DNA from: Anoxybacter fermentans | Lineage (GTDB): Bacteria; Bacillota; Halanaerobiia; DY22613 | Reading direction: 5' to 3' | NCBI RefSeq assembly: GCF_003991135.1 | Contig: NZ_CP016379.1 | Coordinates: 2,356,001-2,420,000, forward strand | Length of the DNA stretch: 64,000 bases | In this document: piece after piece, positions 7,834 to 13,970 of the stretch | Position numbering within the stretch: the stretch's first letter is position 1 | How the letters are laid out: every line of letters begins with the position of its first letter | Translations under genes and position numbers: made by a program | Notes under the pieces: model-generated | What the model saw: the letters and a program-made list of their open reading frames with translations, nothing else | The model's database searches: none | What the model was told of the DNA's origin: nothing

Positions 7834-8727
7834 TTATTCTCCTCTGACTTTGAAGTCATTTTTGGAGTAAATTTGAATCAATTCCTTGTTATGGCTAATT
7901 ATCCGGTGATTTATAAGTTTTGACTCCAATTCATCCAGAGTAATATAACGTTCTTTATTCTTAAGAAAAATTTTTAACTCTTTTTCCTTTTGCATAAGTT
8001 TTGGTATCGCTCTAGGATCAATGTAAATAACATTCCCAAACCTGAATCCGATATTCTTATAGAAATAATTTTGATAGATAAAGGAAACCTTATGTGGAAC
8101 TGGATAGATTCCTGCTTCTTTAGTTTTTAAGAGATAAATTAAATATGGTATAAATATCTTATCTTTGATTTCCTTATCCTTTATGAGATTAAGAAATGTG
8201 AAAATATTGTTTGTTCCATATCCGTAAATATCTTCAAGGAGACGAAATTTAAGATCCTCTCCCTCTTTTATAAGAAAAATCGTCTGGTAATATATCTTTA
8301 CCCTGGTCCCTTTTTCAACCAGATGATAAATCAATTCTATATCATTATTATACATCCTGATACACCCTAAAGAAACGGAGCTTCCGATTGAGGTAGAATT
8401 AATATTTCCATGAATTCCATATCCTTTTTTGCTCAATCCCAACCAGTAACTTCCCAAAGGATTAGTTTGTCCAGGCGGAATAGGTTCTCTATTTTTTGGA
8501 TACCAGGTAGGGTCCTTTATTTTATTTATAATTATAAACTCTCCAATCGGGGTCTCATGGCCTGGACGTCCAACTCCAACCGGTGCTTCATATATAATCT
8601 CTTCTGATTGATATACTCGCAAAATAAACTCAGGAATATTGATTCGGATTTCTAACTCTGGTGAATTGGCAATTCCAATTGGACAAAAAAAAATCAAAAA
8701 CAGAATAAAAAAGACCAGCCTTCTCAT
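7834..8727 (-). CDS. L,D-transpeptidase (YkuD family), secreted
   Basis: A 297-residue enzyme expected to form 3-3 cross-links in peptidoglycan or to attach proteins to it. Residues 1-20 are a hydrophobic signal (LVFFILFLIFFCPIGIA). The YkuD domain (about 25-150) contains VGVGRPGHETPIGEF, GIHGNINSTSIGSSVSLGCI and RMYNND, with the catalytic Cys in SLGCIRM and the conserved His in GIHG. The last 150 residues are helical and unrecognised. The ATG at 8727 follows GGAGAGG by 6 nt. A second YkuD gene lies 76 bp upstream on the same strand, so the two may be co-transcribed. Confidence 0.88.
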   Translation of the reverse strand: MRRLVFFILFLIFFCPIGIANSPELEIRINIPEFILRVYQSEEIIYEAPVGVGRPGHETPIGEFIIINKIKDPTWYPKNREPIPPGQTNPLGSYWLGLSKKGYGIHGNINSTSIGSSVSLGCIRMYNNDIELIYHLVEKGTRVKIYYQTIFLIKEGEDLKFRLLEDIYGYGTNNIFTFLNLIKDKEIKDKIFIPYLIYLLKTKEAGIYPVPHKVSFIYQNYFYKNIGFRFGNVIYIDPRAIPKLMQKEKELKIFLKNKERYITLDELESKLINHRIISHNKELIQIYSKNDFKVRGE

Positions 8728-8803
8728 AAAAATCCTCTCCAACTAATGTAATTATATATATATAATATTTTAATCTAATAACGAAAAAAATATCACATCA
8801 AAA

Positions 8804-9958
8804 CTACTGAAAGAGGTAAAAACCCAATTTTTGGAGAGTTGACCAACCCACTTCTCCATCTGCTGGCAAGCCATAATCTTTTTGAAATCTCTGGACAGCT
8901 TTTTTAGTTCTATAACCAAATATTCCATCAGGACGCCATTTATAGTAACCCAATTCTCTTAAACGATTTTGTACCATCCAGACATCTGAACCCCTATCTC
9001 CATCATTAATGGTCCGCCAGGGTAGGTTATAGGGAAAATTACCTCCAACTACAAAAACCCGGGTTCCCCAGGTTACCCATTTATAAAGGGTCTCTATATC
9101 CCGATTGAACATTCTAAAACAGCCATGACTTGCTGCTGTTCCAATAGACCAGGGCTTATTGGTTCCGTGAATTCCATATTTACCGTATGGAACATTAAGA
9201 CCGAGCCAGTGCGTTCCAAATCCTCCGCCCCAACTATCTTTTGATATAATTTTCCAATTTCCGATGGGACTCGGAGTATCCCTTTTTCCAATGGCCACAG
9301 GAAATTTTGCAAATATTTTATTATCCTCAAAAACATACAGTGTTCTTTCATCCAGAACAATTAATATGCTCACCTTTCCTTCGGGTTTAGATTTCCCGAC
9401 AACAGGAATGTTCTCTTCAATGTTCTCTTCATAGACCCGGGCCAGCAGGTTATAGTCATCTAAATCCATAATCCCCGTCGGTTTTAAGCCGTATCTTTTT
9501 TGCAATTTCTTAACAGCAGCCAATGTTTTCGGACCATAGATTCCGTCAATAGCACCGTAATAAAAATCAAGCTTTTTTAAAATTGCCTGAACACCTTTAA
9601 CATCATCATTACGCAGCATTGGTTCAGAATATTTAAGCACCGGATAATTCTCTAATTCACCTTTAATCCATTCTTGACCATTCTCGATCATATGTTTTAA
9701 GAGAAATAAATCTTTACTGGCTTTTATTATATCCTCAAGATTTGCGGCTGGCTCTAATGATAGATTTTGATTCTGTTTTTTAAATTGAATATCCATCTGA
9801 TCAATTGCAGATTCTTCAATTATTTTATTTCGATTCTTTTGATCATCGGAAACGAGCGGTTTCTTGTCCAGATAAAAAATATAAGTAAAAGTAAAAGTTA
9901 AAATAAAAATAAATACAAAAATCAATACAATCCACTTCTTGAATTTAATGGTTTTCAT
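8804..9958 (-). CDS. L,D-transpeptidase with two peptidoglycan-binding domains
   Basis: A 384-residue membrane-anchored enzyme. Domain order: transmembrane anchor (about 9-29, WIVLIFVFIFILTFTFTYIF); helical linker; peptidoglycan-binding domain 1 (about 115-170, VKGVQAILKKLDFYYGAIDG, KTLAAVKKLQKRYGL); YkuD catalytic domain (about 195-315) with GIHGTNKPWSIGTAASHGCF and RMFNRD, including the catalytic Cys; peptidoglycan-binding domain 2 (about 325-384, WMVQNRLRELGYYKWRPDG). The two binding modules bracketing the catalytic domain fit an enzyme held on the sacculus. GGGGGAATAAG precedes the ATG. Confidence 0.92.
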   Translation of the reverse strand: MKTIKFKKWIVLIFVFIFILTFTFTYIFYLDKKPLVSDDQKNRNKIIEESAIDQMDIQFKKQNQNLSLEPAANLEDIIKASKDLFLLKHMIENGQEWIKGELENYPVLKYSEPMLRNDDVKGVQAILKKLDFYYGAIDGIYGPKTLAAVKKLQKRYGLKPTGIMDLDDYNLLARVYEENIEENIPVVGKSKPEGKVSILIVLDERTLYVFEDNKIFAKFPVAIGKRDTPSPIGNWKIISKDSWGGGFGTHWLGLNVPYGKYGIHGTNKPWSIGTAASHGCFRMFNRDIETLYKWVTWGTRVFVVGGNFPYNLPWRTINDGDRGSDVWMVQNRLRELGYYKWRPDGIFGYRTKKAVQRFQKDYGLPADGEVGWSTLQKLGFYLFQ

Positions 9959-10920: not shown

Positions 10921-11130
10921 TTACCTTAGAATAATATAATCTTTAAAATTCAACTTCTCCCTCTCACAAAATTTCATCAATTCACTTATAAATTTTACAC
11001 CAATACCTCGCTGCCCACGCATTACTCTATATACATATGAATAATCAAGATTAAGATTCCTGGCAAAGATGACCTCATTCCACCCCCGTTCTTTTATCAA
11101 TTCCTTGATCTTATTAATATCTAGCTTCAT
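10921..11130 (-). CDS. Small XRE-family HTH regulator
   Basis: A 69-residue single-domain DNA-binding protein. Helices 2-3 of the HTH are WNEVIFARNLNLDYSYVYRV followed by MRGQRGIGV; the C-terminal helix is FISELMKFCEREKLNFKDYI. It lacks any effector domain. GGGGGG lies 8 nt before the ATG. Upstream, the decamer TTTACTATTT occurs twice (11154-11163 and 11173-11182, 19 bp apart on the plus strand), a candidate autoregulatory site. It is transcribed away from the tandem-HTH gene at 11460. Confidence 0.8.
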   Translation of the reverse strand: MKLDINKIKELIKERGWNEVIFARNLNLDYSYVYRVMRGQRGIGVKFISELMKFCEREKLNFKDYIILR

Positions 11131-11318: not shown

Positions 11319-11409
11319 TATATTAGTAAATATTATTTACATATTGTGTTTTTATTGTAACACTATCTGGATAATTTGTCAAGGAAAATTTACATATTTT
11401 ATATTTTTA

Positions 11410-11438
11410 TTGACATTAATTTAATATTACTATATAAT
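11410..11438 (+). promoter_or_regulatory. Vegetative promoter of tandem-HTH gene 1
   Basis: TTGACA (11410-11415), 17 bp, TATAAT (11433-11438): a perfect sigma-A consensus. The nonamer ATTTACATA occurs upstream at 11335 and 11388 and also in the promoter of the paralog at 13428. Confidence 0.85.
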
Positions 11439-11459: not shown

Positions 11460-11999
11460 ATGGATTTCAACAATTTTGAGAATAAAAAAATACTAATGGG
11501 AAAGCGTCTGGCCGCTCTTTTAAAAGAACATGATCTGAAGAACAAAGATCTTGCAGAAATACTTAATGTATCAGAATCCTATATTTCAGCATGGAAAAAT
11601 GGTCATCGTTTAATCCCTACCCTATATGTACATAAAATTAGTGAATACTTCGGTGTACCAGTCTCTTATATAATGGGGGAAGATATTGAAGATCATTGTC
11701 AAAAAGCAGGAAAGAAAATTGCTCAGGCCAGAAAATTAAAAGGTATGCAATATATTGACCTGGCAAAAAGGACAGGAATTGCACCAATCAGGTTATCACA
11801 GATTGAGAGAGGAATTATAAAAGCTAAAGCTGAAGAACTTGAAAAAATAGCCAAAGAATTAAATCTAACTGTCGATGAATTAACCATTGATTTTGAAAGT
11901 TGTATTGAGAAAATAAAAAAACTCTGTTTAAAGATGGGTGTTTCTGACGAGAGTATTGAAGCTATTATTCAGCAAATTAAATATGATTTGAGGAAGTAA
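11460..11999 (+). CDS. Tandem-HTH regulator with SinR-like tail (copy 1)
   Basis: A 179-residue cytoplasmic regulator with two XRE HTH domains in series. HTH1 (about 12-70): KNKDLAEILNVSESYISAWK. HTH2 (about 80-140): MQYIDLAKRTGIAPIRLSQI. A tail of about 30 residues (IEKIKKLCLKMGVSDESIEA then IIQQIKYDL) follows the pattern of the SinR/SinI dimerisation helices as I recall them. The paralog at 13428 is about 85 percent identical, including a DNA stretch of some 60 bp identical even at third codon positions, which points to recent duplication or gene conversion. The ribosome site (AAGGGTG) is weak. Converges on the peptide gene. Confidence 0.85.
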   Translation: MDFNNFENKKILMGKRLAALLKEHDLKNKDLAEILNVSESYISAWKNGHRLIPTLYVHKISEYFGVPVSYIMGEDIEDHCQKAGKKIAQARKLKGMQYIDLAKRTGIAPIRLSQIERGIIKAKAEELEKIAKELNLTVDELTIDFESCIEKIKKLCLKMGVSDESIEAIIQQIKYDLRK

Positions 12000-12023
12000 A
12001 AAAAAACCACCCCTAACAGGTGG
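11999..12023 (-). terminator. Terminator of the TPR/peptide operon
   Basis: CCACCTGTTAGGGGTGG stem-loop followed on the minus strand by a run of T, 10 bp past the peptide stop codon. Confidence 0.75.
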
Positions 12024-12033
12024 ATGTGTATCT

Positions 12034-12204
12034 CTATGAATCTCCAGGCCAGGTTGGACCATTTAAAATATTTTTTTCAGAATAACTCAGTTCACTAATC
12101 ATTTGTGAATTGTTATTTATAATATCAGTTGACCAGAAAGAGAAATTTATTATTCCGAATACTCCAATAAGTATAATTAAAAATAACAATATATATTTTT
12201 TCAT
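12034..12204 (-). CDS. Secreted signalling-peptide precursor (56 aa), Phr-like
   Basis: A short gene missed by usual length cut-offs. Its ATG (12204-12202) overlaps the TGA of the TPR gene as ATGA, and GGAGG lies about 12 nt upstream inside the TPR gene, so translation is probably coupled. The product begins MKKYILLFLIILIGVFGI, a charged start plus a hydrophobic signal or anchor (residues 4-19), then a polar linker with INNNSQMISELSYSEK, and ends NGPTWPGDS. That layout (export signal, linker, short proline/tryptophan-rich C-terminus) matches pro-peptides of RRNPP systems such as Phr or PapR. The mature form, processing site and import route are inferred, not shown. No other family is suggested. 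Confidence 0.7.
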   Translation of the reverse strand: MKKYILLFLIILIGVFGIINFSFWSTDIINNNSQMISELSYSEKNILNGPTWPGDS

Positions 12205-13115
12205 ATTTCCTTAACCTCCTCCATCATTGAACTTACATAAAGATCATGTTCAGCTTTATATTTTGCTGCTCTTTCAATATCTGTCTCCAAATCCCCCAAT
12301 ATATACGCTACCTCTGCTAATTCAAGAAGTAAATCCTTTTCTTTAAAAATTGACCTTGCCTGTTTAAGATAAAAATAAGCTTTATGATAATCCCCCTGTT
12401 CTTTGTAACATATGCCCCGTACCTTTAAATTTTCTCCTAATTCAATCTCATGATTTCCCTCTAAAATTATCTTATATGATTCATCCAGTCGTTCATGTGC
12501 CTCCTTAAAATTACCGACCTTTACTAATGACAAAGCTATACCATTTAATGAACAGGATTTCAATTGTCCTTCAAACACATCTATTGCTTTTTGATAAAAT
12601 TCTATTGCTCTATAATGATCATTTAAAGCCTGATAAACTTCTGCAATACTATTGTTCAATTTTGCTATATCAATTAAAGATAATCCTCTAACATTTGCTT
12701 CTTCAAATTCCTTTAATGCTTTTTCAAGAAATTTTTTGTTATCATTCATTTTCCCTATTCTACTATAAATTATACCTCTCCCCAAATGTCCCGCATATAC
12801 CCACTGCGGATTATTCATCTGAATTAATTCATTATAACAGGAAATAGCTTGTTTATTCTTCCCCATCTTCCCATAGCTATTTCCTAAAAATTGAGTCAAT
12901 TCAGCATAATTATCTCCCTCATTAATAGTTCTTGCCCACTTCAGTTTTATTATCGCTCTTTCCAATAAATTTAATTGATAATATGATAACGCTATTAACT
13001 TTGCCGCTTCAGGATTTTGCGTTTTAGCAAATGCAATAATCGAATTTTCAAGGGAATCATAATAATTCCTGGCTTCAAAAGCTTCTTTAGCTAAAACCAG
13101 TTCATCACTACACAT
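12201..13115 (-). CDS. TPR-repeat protein, candidate peptide receptor (Rap-like)
   Basis: A 304-residue, all-helical protein made of about seven tetratricopeptide-like repeats, for example AELTQFLGNSYGKMGKNKQA, LNNSIAEVYQALNDHYRAIE and ENLKVRGICYKEQGDYHKAY. No HTH, enzyme motif, signal or membrane segment is present, so it resembles the peptide-binding part of Rap/NprR/PlcR proteins without the DNA-binding domain. The start at 13115 has GGGAGG 8 nt upstream; an in-frame ATG at 13136 has no clear site. The downstream gene encodes a secreted peptide and overlaps by 4 bp. It is divergent from, and between, two tandem-HTH regulators, which are the obvious candidate partners (inference). Confidence 0.8.
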   Translation of the reverse strand: MCSDELVLAKEAFEARNYYDSLENSIIAFAKTQNPEAAKLIALSYYQLNLLERAIIKLKWARTINEGDNYAELTQFLGNSYGKMGKNKQAISCYNELIQMNNPQWVYAGHLGRGIIYSRIGKMNDNKKFLEKALKEFEEANVRGLSLIDIAKLNNSIAEVYQALNDHYRAIEFYQKAIDVFEGQLKSCSLNGIALSLVKVGNFKEAHERLDESYKIILEGNHEIELGENLKVRGICYKEQGDYHKAYFYLKQARSIFKEKDLLLELAEVAYILGDLETDIERAAKYKAEHDLYVSSMMEEVKEI

Positions 13116-13172
13116 CTTCCAGTCCTCCCATTCCATTCTACCCCTTTTTTAAATTATACCTTCCCTTTCCAT

Positions 13173-13201
13173 ATAATATCATAATTATTGTATGATGTCA
13201 A
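13173..13201 (-). promoter_or_regulatory. Promoter of the TPR/peptide operon with internal inverted repeat
   Basis: On the minus strand TTGACA (13201-13196), 17 bp, TATTAT (13178-13173). The spacer is filled by a perfect inverted repeat ATCATA-N7-TATGAT (13178-13196), well placed for a repressor to block RNA polymerase. Confidence 0.75.
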
Positions 13202-13291: not shown

Positions 13292-13324
13292 TTATGTAAA
13301 ATATTACAAAAATCATTTACATAA
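13292..13324. promoter_or_regulatory. 9-bp inverted repeat between divergent promoters
   Basis: TTATGTAAA (13292-13300) and TTTACATAA (13316-13324) are a perfect inverted pair with a 15-bp spacer, midway between the two divergent promoters. It contains one of the ATTTACATA words shared with the 11460 promoter. Candidate operator for the tandem-HTH proteins; the AT-rich setting lowers certainty. Confidence 0.45.
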
Positions 13325-13369
13325 AATATTATACAACTAGACTTTAAATTAATATATGTTAAATTTTTA

Positions 13370-13398
13370 TTGACCCTGGTTAAAAAGTTTTATATAAT
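13370..13398 (+). promoter_or_regulatory. Vegetative promoter of tandem-HTH gene 2
   Basis: TTGACC (13370-13375), 17 bp, TATAAT (13393-13398). As in copy 1, the -35 is preceded by TTTTTA and an ATTTACATA word overlaps or lies near it (13397). Confidence 0.8.
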
Positions 13399-13427
13399 TT
13401 ACATATAGAGAAGGAGGCTTTAAACAA

Positions 13428-13970
13428 ATGGATTATGACAATCTTAAAGATAAGAAAAAACTAATGGGAGAACGGCTTGCTTTTCTCTTAAAAGAGCATA
13501 ATATAAAAAATAAAGAATTGGCAAAAATACTCAACGTATCAGAATCCTATATTTCAGCATGGAAAAATGGTCATCGTTTAATCCCTACCCTATATATACA
13601 TAAAATTAGTGAATACTTCGGTGTACCAGTCTCCTATCTAATGGGAGAAGATATTGAAAACCATTGGCAAAAAATTGGAAAGAAAATCGCTAAGGCCAGA
13701 AAATTAAAGAATATGCAATATATTGACCTGGCAAAAAAGACTGGAATTGCACCAATCAGGTTATCACAGATTGAAAGGGGAATTATAAAAGCTAAAGCTG
13801 AAGAACTTGAAAAAATCGCCGAAGAGTTAAATTTAACTGTTGATGAATTAACCATCGATTTTGAAAGTTGCATTGAAGAAATAAAAAAACTCTGTGTAAA
13901 AATAGGAGTTTCTGATGAAAGTATCGAAGCTATTATTCAACAAATAAAATTTGATATAGAAATGTACTAA
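13428..13970 (+). CDS. Tandem-HTH regulator with SinR-like tail (copy 2)
   Basis: A 180-residue paralog of the regulator at 11460. The first recognition helix region (SESYISAWKNGHRLIPTLY) is identical in the two, so both should recognise the same DNA words through HTH1; HTH2 (LAKKTGIAPIRLSQIERG) is also almost identical. Differences cluster at the N-terminus and in the last 25 residues (IEEIKKLCVKIGVSDESIEA), where dimer or partner choice would lie. GGAGG lies 11 nt before the ATG. It is divergent from the TPR/peptide operon and shares its 300-bp control region. Confidence 0.85.
   Translation: MDYDNLKDKKKLMGERLAFLLKEHNIKNKELAKILNVSESYISAWKNGHRLIPTLYIHKISEYFGVPVSYLMGEDIENHWQKIGKKIAKARKLKNMQYIDLAKKTGIAPIRLSQIERGIIKAKAEELEKIAEELNLTVDELTIDFESCIEEIKKLCVKIGVSDESIEAIIQQIKFDIEMY

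Follow-up and report, generated by a model that had tools for sequence, protein, structure and literature searches.

In the Rap-Phr systems of Bacillus, a propeptide gene some 50-60 codons long stands behind the receptor gene, and the pheromone is usually the C-terminal part of the propeptide. In pLS20 of Bacillus subtilis, as far as the cited accounts go, a Rap protein without the phosphatase residues binds the Xre-type repressor Rco, by which repression is relieved, and the re-imported Phr pentapeptide disrupts this Rap-Rco contact (PMC7430634, PMC3814332). The criteria given for RRNPPA pairs include a TPR receptor of 250-500 aa and an adjacent propeptide of 10-100 aa (PMC10075063). Subfamily 17 of Anoxybacter fermentans was described, in a structural phylogeny, as RRNPPA receptors that lost the HTH (PMC12700828), and since that subfamily is named there, HTH-less receptors of the kind considered in this study have already been predicted. 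The terms "Anoxybacter", "Halanaerob" and "Xre" are absent from the main text of the RRNPP_detector paper (PMC10075063), and our literature search found no paper on XRE partners of subfamily 17 or on such a module in elements of the Mu type.

The window, i.e., the whole stretch of 64,000 nucleotides of Anoxybacter fermentans DNA that was analysed, carries a TPR gene on the minus strand (12201-13136) and behind it a 56-codon gene on the same strand (12034-12204), which is the predicted pheromone precursor with a Sec-like N-terminus and the tail NGPTWPGDS. The putative receptor P0002 is a TPR protein of 311 aa and the propeptide of 56 aa is directly adjacent through an ATGA overlap, both within the size ranges of RRNPPA pairs, and separate XRE genes lie nearby (11460-11999 and 13428-13970), as in a RappLS20-like module. 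We give a rough probability of 0.72 to the reading that the 56-codon gene encodes the precursor of an RRNPPA/Phr-type pheromone for the overlapping TPR protein, including the full scheme of six steps outlined here. The ORF is very probably a Phr-like pheromone precursor; there is good support for the gene itself and for its being paired with the TPR gene, and both can be considered highly likely. In the proposed scheme, one mRNA would yield both the TPR protein and the propeptide by the stop-start coupling read from the sequence, and the propeptide would be exported by Sec via its hydrophobic N-terminus. Extracellular proteolysis would then release a short acidic Pro/Trp/Gly C-terminal peptide, about NGPTWPGDS, a step that would fit the similar tails of the window locus and the homologous locus described below. 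An oligopeptide permease would re-import the peptide, for which nine SBP_bac_5 genes in the genome are candidate oligopeptide-binding-protein genes, and the peptide would bind the TPR solenoid. Finally, the flanking XRE regulators would be the most likely partners of the TPR protein, which may counter them as an anti-repressor, the peptide switching this contact, as co-inheritance and the pLS20 precedent suggest. This peptide-switched anti-repressor contact is the least certain step, to which we would give about even odds, and the direction of the peptide effect is one that we infer. Because the anatomy of the locus (an HTH-less TPR protein, a Sec-like propeptide, a separate XRE regulator and permease candidates) matches that of pLS20, the same logic is proposed.

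The Pfam search of P0002 returned TPR_12 and other TPR families, no HTH was matched in the Pfam and library search, and the defence library gave no match. As it is without an HTH, P0002 is proposed to act by protein contact. The AlphaFold2 model, which was built on a two-row alignment with five models spanning pLDDT 50 to 85, is all-helical, with 16 helices and a mean pLDDT of 85. Its structural matches include RapI (Z 21.6, 252 residues, 3.5 A), NprR (Z 19.6), apo RappLS20 (Z 19.1) and RapH (Z 19.0); LGN (Z 24.0) outranks Rap and designed TPR proteins score as high or higher, so the fold alone cannot identify a pheromone receptor. The RapI alignment begins only at model residue 40 and RapI chain residue 101, therefore a Rap-type N-terminal domain seems to be missing in P0002; the RapH alignment begins at model residue 24 and RapH chain residue 4. 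The sequence similarity of P0002 to RapF reached an E value of 0.006 only.

The search with P0002 gave 9 matches in its own genome (G000) and 12 in a family-level relative of another genus (G001), the one further member of the family in the set of 61 genomes. Across these 61 genomes (the own genome and 60 relatives), strong matches were confined to these two and weak ones occurred in 6 others. A profile built from 12 P0002-like TPR proteins (A1) matched 40 times in the own genome and 57 times in G001 at E 0.001, many of the matches being short or lying in long multi-repeat proteins, and the flanks were examined for the fuller matches only. In 59 genomes of the class, full-length A1 matches of the P0002 kind were found in G000 and G001 and partial ones in 4 others, and in a sample of the phylum (n=299) P0002 matched in the own genome and in G330, as did A1. 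Viral contigs gave no match to query A2 or A4, phages gave none to P0002, P0001 or the TPR protein of L155, and plasmids gave none to P0002; among genome contigs, query A2 matched L033, a contig of G001, and an Aminicenantes sequence at 26%.

The two XRE regulators of the module are 85% identical and each contains two HTH_3 domains, and their only matches in the defence library are of the HTH type. XRE regulator 1 (13428-13970, plus strand) is divergent from the TPR gene, XRE regulator 2 (11460-11999, plus strand) is convergent with the TPR-peptide pair, and no other gene lies inside the module. Promoter-like sites were recognised by consensus match before XRE 1 (13370-13398, plus strand, 11/12) and before XRE 2 (11410-11438, plus strand, 12/12). 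Two ATTTACATAT sites before XRE 2 (11335-11397, plus strand), and ATTTACATAA with ATTTACATAT before XRE 1 (13315-13406, plus strand), are weak candidates for operators whose pattern was picked by eye. The pattern ATTTACATAW, also picked by eye, occurs 6 times in the window (1.1 expected), and 4 of these are before the two XRE genes. As an XRE operator it is a hint only, the two upstream regions being paralogous; it occurs once in the sister locus L133, outside the intergenic regions of the module, and a longer operator consensus had no match in the genome, the window locus included.

A convergent XRE gene stands 91-389 bp behind the TPR gene in L095, L097, L098, L100, L106, L111, L112 and L133. 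The XRE tree groups the window locus with L133 (98/98) and L095 with L098, L111 and L112 (100/99), and the TPR tree repeats both groupings (97/97 and 100/99, respectively). The XRE and TPR distances are correlated (Mantel r 0.51, p 0.006 for 10 pairs; r 0.63, p 0.008 for 8 pairs). The two trees are partly congruent: L099 and L100 pair on the XRE tree and not on the TPR tree. Among the XRE genes, the label "near TPR" was not significantly clustered by their tree (62 of 500 shuffles were as low). The leading alternative keeps the pheromone but gives the TPR protein a Rap-like role, with a response regulator or some other cytosolic protein as its target, and takes the XRE regulators for neighbours only. 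We regard it as unlikely, because 6 of the 10 TPR genes that bear a peptide in the own genome have an XRE gene within 500 bp, because clades are common to both trees, and because, judging by where the RapI alignment starts, P0002 seems to be missing the Rap-type N-terminal domain; what it would explain is that L096, L101 and L104 of G000 and most peptide-bearing TPR genes of G001 have no nearby XRE gene, and that relatives of the XRE genes are also found alone, away from TPR genes. The chance expectation of such linkage is about 1% per gene (about 16 XRE genes in 3.56 Mb, counted by hand), and the linkage counts are not independent because the loci are paralogues.

The TPR genes of G000 and G001 were compared with other genes for the presence of such a small ORF. 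The TPR set contained 50 A1-matching ORFs of at least 120 aa, two of which are pieces of one broken gene (L133), and the comparison set contained 160 other genes of at least 150 aa in the window and the same loci. A small Sec-like ORF, defined as 35-110 aa, positioned at -80 to +60 nt of the stop, with a Shine-Dalgarno-like site and K/R plus a hydrophobic core, was found at the 3' end of 26 of the 50 TPR-profile genes versus 2 of the 160 others; the Fisher value of 3e-17 makes this difference look stronger than it is, because the thresholds were fixed after a first look at the positives. Peptide-bearing TPR genes make up 10 of 15 in the own genome and 16 of 35 in G001. Both exceptions among the other genes look family-like, one having the tail YPDPEPGTTSS.. 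behind the 345-aa gene of L111, and the other being the TTNGPAYDDDESN ORF between the XRE gene and the TPR gene of L115. At L111 (6218-10061), four tandem TPR genes without small ORFs by the criteria adjoin this 345-aa gene. The 24 TPR-profile genes that have no small ORF by the criteria include several core genes that are orthologous between the two genomes (tree pairs L102/L116, L103/L118, L105/L121 and L107/L122) and three genes whose peptide falls outside the criteria (in L110 and L115 it precedes the TPR gene, and the third is the second gene of L113). At L150 (3182-3571), a TPR fragment of 129 aa has a small Sec-like ORF behind it, which contains ADPYVVPDESPK; the XRE gene there is convergent.

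The tails of these peptides, counted after residue 22, contain 3.3 times as much Pro and 1.9 times as much Asp as other genes, and 0.2 times as much Lys plus Arg. A loose pattern of G/D/N/E/I-P, then an aromatic residue, Pro or Leu, then D/E, which was composed after the peptides were seen, fits 23 of the 26 peptides. Examples of the tails are NGPTWPGDS at the window locus, and EGPNWPPDD, DPAWDDEP, NPNWADEPD, DPVWDDEPD, GPWPDPDTDG, NWPDPDEN, TGDPLPHDEWE and repeated GPIEQP elsewhere. Judged by eye, the motif lies directly behind the likely signal-peptidase site in some peptides and at the C-terminal end in others, including the window locus. Repeated GPIEQP / GPIQ(K/R)PV units occur in the propeptides behind an orthologous TPR pair (L018, 2307-2621; L027, 1164-1376), and they are like the tandem pheromone copies of Phr as far as the cited report describes them (PMC11343458). 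The soluble, acidic and Pro-rich nature of the tails, together with dozens of parallel TPR-peptide pairs whose tails diverge yet keep a similar composition, as would be expected of receptors and their ligands, makes it very improbable that the ORF encodes a small membrane peptide, or an antimicrobial/toxic one resembling a bacteriocin or type I toxin, that is co-transcribed with the TPR gene by chance, even though its shortness, hydrophobic N-terminus and lack of a library match would agree with such a peptide.

The best homologue of P0002, with 40% identity, is found in the MAG Halothermothrix sp. B5_bin.9 (L033), where the downstream ORF of 57 aa starts within the TPR gene and carries EGPNWPPDDG and eight more residues. 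The two tails share GPxWPxD (GPTWPGDS in the window, GPNWPPDD at the homologous locus), and the ungapped 9-residue similarity between the parts after residue 24 was equalled in 5 of 20000 shuffles; the motif of L033 is not at the very C-terminus, unlike that of the window peptide. The earlier note on this DNA had pointed to the last 5-12 residues of the product, and this focus agrees with the comparison, in which the tail is the clearest similarity to the peptide of the homologous locus (NGPTWPGDS / EGPNWPPDD). On the TPR tree the window receptor and its closest homologue are paired (96/90), and the larger fragment of the broken L133 gene joins them as their nearest neighbour (97/97). No XRE gene was found near the closest homologous pair (L113).

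The ORF itself runs on the minus strand from 12204 to 12034 with 56 codons and a TAG. The earlier note had proposed such a frame overlapping the TPR gene, its strand not being given, and the features it named could be located: the ATG (12204-12202) overlaps the TPR stop TGA (12203-12201) to form ATGA, and the upstream ribosome-binding site is the Shine-Dalgarno-like GGAGGAGG inside the TPR gene (12215-12222, minus strand), read from the sequence 10 nt before the ATG. The signal-like N-terminus, KKYILLFLIILIGVFGII, is a K/R-led hydrophobic stretch that is Sec-like by hydropathy, and no canonical AXA signal-peptidase site was seen by eye in the product. The terminator claimed within 12 bp of the stop was found as an intrinsic-terminator-like hairpin and T run 10 nt past it (12007-12023, minus strand), which when folded with its flanks was no better than shuffles (z -0.62). 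A promoter-like site of the TPR-peptide pair, TTGACA-17-TATTAT with TG before the -10 (13173-13201, minus strand, 11/12), is a consensus match only. Of 20000 dinucleotide shuffles that kept the ATG in place, 0.9% were open for 56 codons, and none combined at least 50 codons with a hydrophobic stretch that was led by K/R and reached the strength required. The ORF had a codon-usage score of -0.015 per codon and the TPR gene one of 0.192; scores of nine sister peptide genes in the own genome ranged from 0.048 to 0.271, and real 56-codon gene pieces had a mean of 0.17, about 2% of them being as low as the ORF. Codon usage is silent on, or against, the ORF being real, and the product had no match in the family libraries, including the defence library. 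By itself the ORF is suggestive, and it is comparison that carries the case for it. A chance frame in the 3' untranslated stretch, which the codon-usage score and the length of only 56 codons would allow, is the most improbable of the alternatives, given that no shuffle reproduced the length with the signal-like start, that the Shine-Dalgarno, ATGA and terminator are all present, and that the arrangement recurs at sister loci. A real, translationally coupled and secreted small protein, as predicted from the letters, is supported as the best reading of the ORF. To that note the present analysis adds the family found across the genome, the XRE genes on both sides and the connection to RRNPPA systems.

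Related arrangements were also observed elsewhere. In G330, which belongs to another family of the phylum, an HTH-TPR fusion of up to 450 aa (L032, 862-2211) is followed by a Sec-like small ORF (from 2219 on). The XRE-like HTH, read by eye, is on the same chain as the TPR repeats, so the HTH-TPR link has a fused counterpart, and the small ORF is GP- and PP-rich and ends in SAGPNDGPIDPPDYPPGSGDGDSG. In G001, a tyrosine integrase lies beside the gene most closely homologous to the window TPR gene (L156, 2918-6800), and a stop-broken TPR gene with its own peptide and an XRE gene adjoins a serine recombinase (L133, 524-4216). On two further contigs of G001, C4 and C35 (L110/L115), a MuA-like transposase gene is divergent from an XRE-peptide-TPR operon (L154, 836-4659; L155, 848-4663). 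In both operons an XRE gene with a single HTH is joined by a small Sec-like ORF, the tails being STNAPGFDDDEE and TTNGPAYDDDESN, and by a TPR gene without an HTH. The whole has the look of a repressor-pheromone-receptor switch belonging to a Mu-type element. No integrase, recombinase or transposase was found in the immediate surroundings of the window module. Two tRNA-Leu genes lie 0.7 kb from XRE 2; an attachment site was considered and rejected, as the tRNA-Leu ends were not found again around the module as a long direct repeat. A 69-aa ORF with weak phage-HTH matches (phrog_3642) lies between the two tRNA-Leu genes and the XRE gene (10921-11130, minus strand), and two adjacent genes (7834-8742 and 8804-9958, minus strand) are presumably L,D-transpeptidase-like, as judged by eye.

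As a tentative and rather doubtful generalisation, these loci may belong to a split pheromone-receptor family, in which Pro/Asp-rich pheromones and HTH-less TPR anti-repressors with co-inherited XRE repressors are common to chromosomal loci and mobile elements, with an arbitrium-like switch in the latter, and the window locus may be a copy that has settled and whose repressor is duplicated. The co-inherited separate XRE partners, the Pro/Asp-rich peptide code and the XRE-peptide-TPR operons beside Mu-type transposases in G001 are new here. If the pheromone reading is true, many parallel peptide channels (10 peptide-bearing TPR genes here and 16 in G001) would exist in an anaerobic lineage far from Bacillus, and candidate peptide codes would be readable from sequence. 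The natural split of the HTH-TPR receptor would also allow receptor-repressor specificity to be studied on parts that are already apart, and a transposable element would be under pheromone control, provided that the Mu-type loci are borne out.

As compared to the known systems, the window receptor gene precedes a propeptide gene of 56 codons, as in Rap-Phr, but P0002 seems to be without the phosphatase-type N-terminal domain and is about 60-70 residues shorter than Rap proteins. In the HTH-TPR receptors (PlcR, NprR, PrgX and AimR/arbitrium), a peptide-bound TPR is likewise coupled to an XRE-type HTH, which is N-terminal, whereas at the window locus the HTH is on a separate polypeptide. The pair also resembles RRNPPA subfamily 17, whose members are predicted HTH-less TPR receptors, by the description given of that subfamily (PMC12700828). 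Unlike RappLS20-Phr-Rco as described in the cited accounts, the window locus has two XRE copies with two HTH each, another tail chemistry and no Rap-type N-terminal domain seen in the model. With that system it shares an HTH-less TPR protein, a small propeptide behind it and a separate Xre-type regulator, while the export of the propeptide, the import by an oligopeptide permease and the regulator as target are predicted here (PMC7430634, PMC3814332).
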